The position numbers and the translations under genes are program-made. Below, piece by piece: positions 1 through 1,522 of a DNA stretch of 50,575 nucleotides (the first letter of the stretch is position 1; every line of letters starts with the position of its first letter). This stretch comes from Tangfeifania diversioriginum (GTDB lineage: Bacteria; Bacteroidota; Bacteroidia; Bacteroidales; Prolixibacteraceae), in assembly GCA_945873105.1 (NCBI GenBank), contig CAMCBW010000040.1, positions 1-50,575 on the forward strand, given 5' to 3'. The notes under the pieces are model-generated. The model did no database searches and was not told the DNA's origin. It saw only the letters and a list, made by a program, of their open reading frames with translations.

Positions 1-1070
1 AGCATTTTGAGGTGGCAGAACAACAATTTGCCCTCTTTGTCATTTCTCAGGTGCATTCCGTTTCCTTCACAATAGCGGTACGAGTCGCAGGTAGCACATT
101 CGTCAATTTTGGTCCACGACCGATCCCTGTATTTCTGGAATCCCTTTTCCCACACGGTCATAAAATCATCCTGGTAGATGTTCCCCTGAACAAAGTTGTC
201 CCTCAGGTCAGGACAGGCTGAAATAGCGCCATCAGCCAGAATGGAGCCAATGTTGATGCCTGCCCGGCAGAAGAAGAAGTTGTCCCTGACCTCTCCCTCA
301 TAGATACCAAGATATCCTTCACAGCTGTAATTCAGATTGATGCGACTCTCTTTCCTGGTTGTGGCAATAAAATCAAACAGCTTTTTGAACTCGGTCGGCG
401 ATAATTGCAAGGCAGGATCGCTCTTTGCCCTGCCAATCGGGAAGATAGTGAAGATGCGCCAATGGGCAACACCCCTGCCAATCAACAACTCTTTCAGTTG
501 TTCCAGCTCTCCCAGATTCCGGGGATTTATGCAGGTTACCACATCATATTTTAAATCCGGAACATTGGGTAAAAGAGCGATGGCATCGACTGCTTTTTGA
601 AAACTCTGTCTGTTGGCCCGAAGCCAGTTGTGGGAAGCTTCCAGTCCGTCGAGACTGATGGTAATGGATCTCAACCCGGCATTGAGCAACGCATTGAAGC
701 GGGCTTGACTCAGCAAATATCCGTTGGTGACCATTCCCCATGGAAAGCCTCTTTTGTAGAGCTCATGGCCGCACTCTTCCAGGTCCTTGCGCAGCAAAGG
801 CTCACCTCCGGTAACCACGATGGTGGTGTGGTTGGGTTGAACATGTGGGGCAATTGTGTCAATCGCATTCAGAAAATCTGCCAAAGGCATATCCTTCACC
901 GCAGACTCTTTTTTACAGTCACTGCCACAGTGGAGGCAAGTCAAGTTGCATCTCAGGGTACATTCCCAGAAAAGATAGGATAGCTCGTGTATTCTGGTGG
1001 TGTTTTTCCTGTATACCCTGAAGAGTTCCAGCGCGATGCTTTTTTTGAAGGGGATCTTCGGAATGGTCAC
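1..1070 (-). CDS. radical SAM/SPASM protein of the rSAM/lipoprotein system (3' end outside window)
   Basis: The minus-strand frame stays open from a GTG at 1070 to the window edge, about 356 residues. The motif CNLTCLHC near residues 40-47 is a canonical CxxxCxxC radical SAM cluster site, followed by TGGEPLLR. The C-terminal half has a SPASM-like cysteine pattern (CRAG, ACPD, CATCDSYRYCEG, then another C), which would hold auxiliary Fe-S clusters. The GTG shares four bases (GTGA) with the stop codon of the upstream lipoprotein gene, so the two are probably translationally coupled. The next in-frame ATG lies beyond the cysteine motif and is too late to be the start. The pairing fits the Bacteroidetes rSAM/lipoprotein families (TIGR04133 with TIGR04134), recalled from memory. 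The reaction is unknown; modification of the partner lipoprotein is an inference. Confidence 0.85.
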   Translation of the reverse strand, partial: MTIPKIPFKKSIALELFRVYRKNTTRIHELSYLFWECTLRCNLTCLHCGSDCKKESAVKDMPLADFLNAIDTIAPHVQPNHTTIVVTGGEPLLRKDLEECGHELYKRGFPWGMVTNGYLLSQARFNALLNAGLRSITISLDGLEASHNWLRANRQSFQKAVDAIALLPNVPDLKYDVVTCINPRNLGELEQLKELLIGRGVAHWRIFTIFPIGRAKSDPALQLSPTEFKKLFDFIATTRKESRINLNYSCEGYLGIYEGEVRDNFFFCRAGINIGSILADGAISACPDLRDNFVQGNIYQDDFMTVWEKGFQKYRDRSWTKIDECATCDSYRYCEGNGMHLRNDKEGKLLFCHLKM

Positions 1071-1522
1071 GGTTTGGGTTTCATTTTTAGGTTCAGGACC
1101 TTCTCTGTCTTCCCGGTGTACCACCCATCACCACCGGTAAATTTGGGATTCGTATAGGTCACCGTTGTATCAAGAGGTTCATAGGTTCCGTTCATTGCTC
1201 CGTCTACATCCGTGAGGGATAAATGGAGGTTAGTAACCTGTATATGCGTAATTTTGCATTGATAATTTCCCAGGACATCACTCTTGACAGTATCGGTTAG
1301 GAAGGGGGAGTCGGCATCCCTGGCGATGACCCTGATTCCTCTCAGGCTGGAGTTGTCTTTGGAAGAGGCAATATTTCCCTTGACAATATAGTCGGCATGC
1401 GGAGTGCCATAAGCTGCCACCAATCCACCCCAGGGTCCATTCTTGCATGCACCTGTGAAACCCAACAATGCCATCAGGAATGCGATGAATTTATTTCCTC
1501 CTGTAATTACTTTTTTGCGCAT
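1067..1522 (-). CDS. radical SAM-associated putative lipoprotein
   Basis: A 151-residue protein starting MRKK, with a hydrophobic stretch at about 11-24 ending FTGAC. Cys26 is the likely lipidation site, although the lipobox is atypical because Thr, not Leu, is at -3. The mature part carries YGTPHADYIVKG and then a short beta-rich region resembling a carboxypeptidase-regulatory-like fold. Near the end, DVDGAMNG and FTGGDGWYTG resemble the conserved end of the putative lipoproteins (TIGR04134) found beside the TIGR04133 radical SAM enzyme. It is the upstream gene of the pair and its TGA overlaps the GTG of the enzyme. It may be the substrate or the surface partner of that enzyme; neither role is shown by the sequence. 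The family assignment is from memory. Confidence 0.85.
   Translation of the reverse strand: MRKKVITGGNKFIAFLMALLGFTGACKNGPWGGLVAAYGTPHADYIVKGNIASSKDNSSLRGIRVIARDADSPFLTDTVKSDVLGNYQCKITHIQVTNLHLSLTDVDGAMNGTYEPLDTTVTYTNPKFTGGDGWYTGKTEKVLNLKMKPKP

Follow-up and report, generated by a model that had tools for sequence, protein, structure and literature searches.

The DNA analysed here opens with the genes of a radical SAM/SPASM enzyme and a small lipoprotein, and the question it raises is what the enzyme does to its neighbor and at which residue. The window, by which we mean the whole stretch of 50,575 nucleotides from Tangfeifania diversioriginum, begins at base 1 of its contig, which truncates the enzyme by a few C-terminal residues (347 of the 350 positions of the TIGR04133 model are present). 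An earlier sequence-only reading had described a GTG start of the SPASM gene that overlaps the lipoprotein stop and had assigned the proteins to TIGR04133 and TIGR04134. Both statements hold. The overlap is a GTGA (Table 1), and the enzyme scores 583.8 bits against TIGR04133 (curated NCBIfam cut-off 425), the lipoprotein 91.0 bits against TIGR04134 (cut-off 39.8). In NCBIfam the two families are hypothetical equivalogs, and their names give no function. The program-made list of open reading frames contains an alternative in-frame GTG for the enzyme at 1124. We prefer the GTG at 1070, because the TIGR04133 model starts 7 residues past this codon and because the 18 extra N-terminal residues are predicted to be disordered (pLDDT < 50). 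The enzyme matches PF04055 with 65.6 bits and PF13186 with 34.0 bits, and each cysteine of the CX3CX2C motif and of the SPASM/auxiliary-cluster set is kept in 184 of 184 enzyme homologues. The genome itself holds one copy over cut-off of each family. Of the 20 TIGR04134-like matches in it, the other 19 score weakly and mostly fall within open frames of 600-1,170 aa; we tentatively take them for a related domain of larger proteins. Ten further proteins scanned between 14289 and 48253 of the window (Omp85, integrase, EF-Tu, NusG, L1, FIST, DegT aminotransferase, GH92, ETF alpha and one without a Pfam match) resemble an ordinary chromosome region.

Table 1. Positions of the features of the enzyme-lipoprotein pair in the window.
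Feature	Position	Strand
TIGR04133 radical SAM/SPASM enzyme, start GTG 1070-1068, C-terminal end cut by contig start	3..1070	-
TIGR04134 lipoprotein, 151 aa, ATG 1522 to TGA 1069-1067	1067..1522	-
GTGA overlap of enzyme GTG start and lipoprotein TGA stop	1067..1070	-
CX3CX2C radical SAM cluster motif, C59/C63/C66 (numbered from GTG 1124)	927..950	-
SPASM domain; C286, C304, C343, C346 and C352 inside, C370 beyond the domain	84..269	-
Lipobox cysteine Cys26	1445..1447	-
YGTPHADY motif (YGxPxxx[FY]), residues 38-45; proposed modification site, X = Ala37	1388..1411	-
Beta-sandwich domain (CnaB / carboxypeptidase-regulatory / transthyretin-like), residues 42-147	1082..1399	-
GGDGWYTG stretch, within the folded domain	1112..1135	-

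Across the class, 8 of 396 sampled genomes have the enzyme, and within the order Bacteroidales 105 of 392 do. The commensal Parabacteroides distasonis also has the pair (L245). TIGR04134 occurs in 59 of the 392, and 57 of these 59 also carry the enzyme (Fisher p 1.2e-36, with kinship and phylogeny ignored), whereas no match to TIGR04134 at E 1e-8 was obtained in 48 of the 105 genomes with the enzyme. Thus, the lipoprotein occurs nearly always in the company of the enzyme, and not the reverse. The tight coupling read from the sequence was right, and with 57 of 59 genomes the proposed modification of the lipoprotein by the enzyme is very probable. The same reading had named an enzyme found mostly without the lipoprotein as the outcome that would speak against it. 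For the TIGR04134 family this is nearly half the case, for the YG motif described below it is not.

The two cysteines and the GGDGWYTG stretch, which had been suggested as modification sites, are present in the lipoprotein, but neither is borne out by conservation. The second cysteine lies outside the columns conserved at 60% or more, and among the cysteines only that of the lipobox is conserved. GGDGWYTG lies in a folded region predicted with high confidence, and its W134 is kept in 61% of 135 homologues. The homologue alignment that had been proposed to find invariant residues outside the lipobox did reveal such residues, though not the ones favored: Y38 and G39 are present in 135 of 135 homologues, in an alignment made with a profile of 20 seeds that all contain YG and reduced from 143 to 135 rows by discarding overlong hits (>230 aa) and duplicate cores. 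P41 follows in 120 of the 135, Phe or Tyr stands at position +7 in 95, and G49 is conserved in 93%. The residue before the tyrosine is Glu in 55, Cys in 35 (there the apparent lipobox cysteine), Met in 20, Ala in 9 and another residue in the remainder. In the lipoprotein of the window the motif reads YGTP (residues 38-41), soon after the lipobox, with Ala37-Tyr38-Gly39 as X-Tyr-Gly. Structure prediction (mean pLDDT 90.6) gives a helix from 2 to 21 and a beta-sandwich from residue 42, and YG lies in a low-confidence linker (pLDDT of 60 and 68 for the blocks across 21-40). The site would therefore be in an exposed tether between anchor and domain. With this model Foldseek retrieved sandwiches of the CnaB, carboxypeptidase-regulatory and dioxygenase types; PF13620 matches 41 of 66 aligned members and not the lipoprotein of the window.

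The same motif recurs beside the enzyme genes. The loci came from two overlapping genome collections and a few plasmid records; de-duplication removed identical 200-residue cores only (224 to 222 enzyme sequences), and the 217 of 222 sequences with at least 250 aa were graded by bit score with a purpose-built profile. With enzymes of at least 440 bits, YG.P is present in a same-strand ORF (<=700 bp) at 160 of 184 loci, against a mean of 13.4 and a maximum of 22 for shuffled ORFs and 13 for the opposite strand; YG.{1,2}P raises the count to 168 of 184. When the set was thinned, once, at 70% enzyme identity, YG.P stood at 90 of 105 loci (shuffled mean 7.6, maximum 16), and the runner-up among all 400 XZ.P motifs reached 35 of 105. 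The 24 of 184 loci that lack YG.P comprise 8 with YG..P, several with Cys-Tyr-Gly without Pro and some with nothing evident. Further down the scale a YG.P neighbor is found at 8 of 9 loci between 340 and 440 bits (shuffled 0.2) and at 6 of 7 between 260 and 340 bits (shuffled 0.8), at none of four between 200 and 260 bits and, below 200 bits, at 1 of 13, a Nostoc TIGR04103 locus. Three enzyme relatives at 200-260 bits (L160, L161, L162), from one family of the order and without a YG.P neighbor, possibly have a different function.

Clustering of the neighbors of at least 110 aa places the beta-sandwich family at 128 of 184 loci, followed by an ATPase-like ORF at 12 loci and coiled-coil lipoproteins at 12 (YG.P in 12 of 12 ORFs); a YG lipopeptide cluster at 8 loci has YG.P in 10 of 13 ORFs. 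At 55 of the 70 loci without a beta-sandwich hit another neighbor carries YG.P. If a hydrophobic stretch is required before the motif, a partner (<=2 kb) is still found at 159 of 184 loci; the nearest one is upstream at 145 loci, and at least two exist at 36. The scaffolds of these partners are unrelated and their common element is Tyr-Gly-x-Pro. Besides the beta-sandwich lipoproteins there are lipoproteins of coiled-coil-like type that carry YGSPE[IV], short lipopeptides that bear their one to three YG motifs close to the C-terminus, secreted proteins with a likely mature N-terminal Gln followed by YGAP, lipoproteins with YGTP directly after the lipobox Cys and, by eye, TonB-C-like and other proteins with repeats. 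On sequence grounds the YG motif emerges as the feature common to most partners, and YGxP is shared beyond the TIGR04134 family to which the lipoprotein of the window belongs. Secreted-looking proteins near enzymes (L211, L212, L214) have YG motifs before a domain that, by eye, is TonB-C-like or acyl-carrier-like and helical.

Genomes with and without the enzyme offer natural tests of this link. A DNA pattern for Gln-Ala-Cys-Tyr-Gly-Thr-Pro (QACYGTP) was found in 26 of 381 genomes, 25 of which carry the enzyme, and its reversed control in 1 genome. In genomes that lack the enzyme, five short homologues below threshold, two of which come from the same genome, contain no YG.P (0 of 5). Of the two genomes with a TIGR04134 match and no enzyme detected, one (G647) has Asn-Gly in place of Tyr-Gly with the rest of the segment kept, which supports the link between motif and enzyme, whereas the other (G585) keeps Tyr-Gly, which does not. 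Both are draft genomes of 94-95% completeness and therefore an enzyme may have been missed. The enzyme-bearing genome G505 has one lipoprotein paralogue (L282) without YG. Taken together, YG as the site of the enzyme on its partners is strongly supported. In the 26th genome with the QACYGTP pattern (G411, L349:1791-2228) an enzyme fragment adjoins a lipoprotein with Cys-Tyr-Gly-Thr-Pro.

Which reaction could take place at such a site? Two papers describe that PlpXY of Pleurocapsa (spliceotides) acts at X-Tyr-Gly, with MYG and LYG as natural sites, that it does not require a leader and that it accepts a ten-residue tag, PIRPGYGLPI, which derives from the PlpA2 core and contains an engineered Gly (PMC10533398; PMC11002830). 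PlpX belongs to IPR026482 (PMC11002830). The system studied here is similar in its radical SAM/SPASM enzyme, its X-Tyr-Gly site, the YGxP form shared with the PlpA2 tag (GYGLPI) and its freedom from a leader. In PMC10533398, a second tag family (GYGVVFP, Table 1 there) lacks the Pro at +3, and in one test protein the tag stayed unmodified at most of the positions tried; the likeness of YGxP to the tag is therefore suggestive only. There are also differences. PlpX works with PlpY and its natural precursors have nitrile-hydratase/Nif11-type leaders (PMC11002830), whereas in the present loci a PlpY-like gene does not recur and most partners are exported lipoproteins. Beside the enzyme no transporter, peptidase or PlpY-like gene recurs beyond 12 of 184 loci. 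Among the 12 listed clusters of small same-strand frames no PlpY-like one was recognised; the three largest (13, 9 and 5 loci) contain no YG.P and are mostly shadow frames that overlap one of the two genes, enzyme or partner, in a different frame (13, 8 and 5 cases). No Nif11 or NHLP leader was seen on the lipoproteins: TIGR04134 matches 66 of 66 aligned proteins, without any leader family among the matches listed.

TIGR04103 (nif11-class radical SAM maturase 3), which we take to be the PlpX family (IPR026482), and TIGR03913 (GDL/DUF1843 maturase) fall on the same side of our trees as TIGR04133 and its lower grades, including the enzymes with YGPP partners, together with Agathobacter and Tropicibacter enzymes. 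The trees contained the window enzyme, 18 random sequences of the 184 with at least 440 bits, 5 of 9 and 7 of 7 sequences from the lower grades, plus outgroups. Support for this side was 100/99 with a midpoint root and 87/69 with a very long outgroup row, in a tree that left out MftC, PqqE, L243_Eb and three enzymes at 200-260 bits and in which only L300, L302 and L331 of eight extra SPASM rows passed the motif filter; L300 and L302 are, by our guess, AnSME-like. It was 93/90 when two further SPASM proteins from the genome of the window served as the root, with L243_Eb, the three 200-260 rows, 13 TIGR04133-side rows and L331 (branch length 6.66) left out. The joining branch is thus not fully supported (93/90; 87/69). 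Nevertheless, these comparisons point clearly to kinship of the enzyme with the TIGR04103/TIGR03913 enzymes, which also have Tyr-Gly in their precursors (LYGLPPELF; PYGPAM). On a Nostoc plasmid a TIGR04103 enzyme (853 bits) lies after a Nif11 peptide and before a 71-residue protein; the Nif11 precursor ends in LYGLPPELF, with F at +7 like the F/Y in 95 of the 135 lipoproteins. The Nostoc protein shares 27.4% identity with the window enzyme, which reaches 124.8 bits against TIGR04103 (curated cut-off 725) and is not a member of that family. At two loci of TIGR03913 or close kin, an N-terminal YG occurs in 2 of 5 DUF1843 peptides and Tyr-Ala in two. An Agathobacter rectalis plasmid has an unannotated 71-codon frame (L249:3734-3949) that ends in PVMYGTGVRM, again X-Tyr-Gly, before a TIGR04103-related radical SAM gene.

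The resemblance of the YG motif to the splicease cut site means that the enzyme may equip an exported protein with an unusual, reactive residue. We infer the excision chemistry, its timing and the use of the product as follows. The enzyme, as a splicease-like radical SAM/SPASM protein, would excise tyramine in the cytoplasm at Ala37-Tyr38-Gly39, working like a splicease without a recognisable PlpY or Nif11 leader. The lipoprotein would then be exported by the general lipoprotein route and would present, near the membrane and carried by the beta-sandwich, an electrophilic ketoamide. The likeliest use of the ketoamide, a conjecture, would be that of an anchored trap that binds its targets, for example proteases, covalently and reversibly. 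A tethered protease trap takes the lead because the beta-residues of spliced peptides are reported in a review to give potent protease inhibition (PMC10373908). As a whole, we consider it probable that the enzymes of TIGR04133 resemble spliceases and that they edit exported proteins at YG.

A different chemistry on the same tyrosine, for example a cross-link of its side chain to a nearby residue (cyclophane-like) or an oxidation, is the strongest competitor, although we regard it as rather unlikely. All motif evidence shows the site and not the reaction. PqqE, MftC and WgkB, related SPASM enzymes with chemistries other than splicing, are among the profile matches of the enzyme. The enzyme model (mean pLDDT 83.7, 14 aligned sequences; a radical SAM fold with an N-terminal helix at 26-44) has SuiB, SkfB and BlsE as best solved fold matches, with PqqE and the sactipeptide enzyme 5why in the first ten, and the closeness of its predicted fold to peptide maturases such as SuiB and SkfB counts in favor of the splicease-like reading; SuiB and SkfB themselves are presumably not spliceases, which favors the competitor. 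None of the solved structures matched by sequence at E 0.001 (8 sequences) is named a splicease. However, the Gly after the Tyr is invariant in the 135 homologues, as in X-Tyr-Gly splicing, and among 273 motifs position x is occupied by Gly in 10 and by Pro in 31, which makes a bond between Tyr and the side chain of x an unlikely general product. It is improbable that YGxP is merely a docking motif and that the enzyme modifies another residue, for instance in the beta-sandwich or the Cys. The lipoprotein has strong conservation at G85 (98%) and D105 (92%) as well, but partners without a beta-sandwich keep YGxP, multi-motif peptides repeat YG, and a mature partner can be as short as ~35 residues and begin with Cys-Tyr-Gly (L200). 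Mere co-location with an enzyme that acts on a small molecule or cofactor (AhbD/NirJ-like) is very hard to credit, for despite an AhbD profile score (124.0 bits) nearly equal to that for TIGR04103, a clade of TIGR04133 with AhbD-type enzymes was rejected (p-AU 0.0019), enzymes below 200 bits rarely have a YG.P neighbor and no pathway gene recurs beside most TIGR04133 loci.

Should tyramine excision at YG be the reaction, splicease-like chemistry would extend from RiPP-type peptides to lipoproteins of Bacteroidales. The YG motif gives TIGR04133/TIGR04134, models without a stated function, a precise site and reaction that can be tested, and the large set of leader-free YGxP proteins may provide tools for placing reactive ketoamides in proteins. 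More tentatively, and short of what we would call probable, many Bacteroidales, some Treponema and gut Firmicutes/Actinobacteria might routinely splice tyramine from exported proteins and thereby carry an electrophilic beta-residue near the anchor. Where X is a lipobox-like Cys, the first, lipidated residue would itself be a beta-residue, a kind of N-terminus not known from lipoproteins. In the literature collection searched, no relevant paper was found on the TIGR04133/TIGR04134 pair or on a Bacteroidales link between ketoamides and radical SAM enzymes. The title of Scott et al. 2022 leaves room for TIGR04133 systems, and that paper may already cover part of this. In the text of a Bacteroidales RiPP-mining paper (PMC10352776) the terms lipoprotein, tyramine and splic do not occur.

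The expectation that the partner is a lipoprotein and not a short RiPP precursor is correct for the window, but elsewhere some partners are short peptides with repeated YG that resemble RiPP precursors. Divergent enzymes (32-38% identity) in Clostridia, Erysipelotrichaceae and Coriobacteriaceae lie beside YG.P ORFs in 6 of 7 cases, with up to five repeats. At six loci from Clostridia, Lachnospiraceae, Erysipelotrichaceae and Coriobacteriaceae (L223, L226, L227, L228, L230 and L232) divergent relatives of the enzyme (32-37% identity) stand beside short ORFs with one to five YG.P, mostly YGPP, and these loci are candidates for unnamed RiPP systems.
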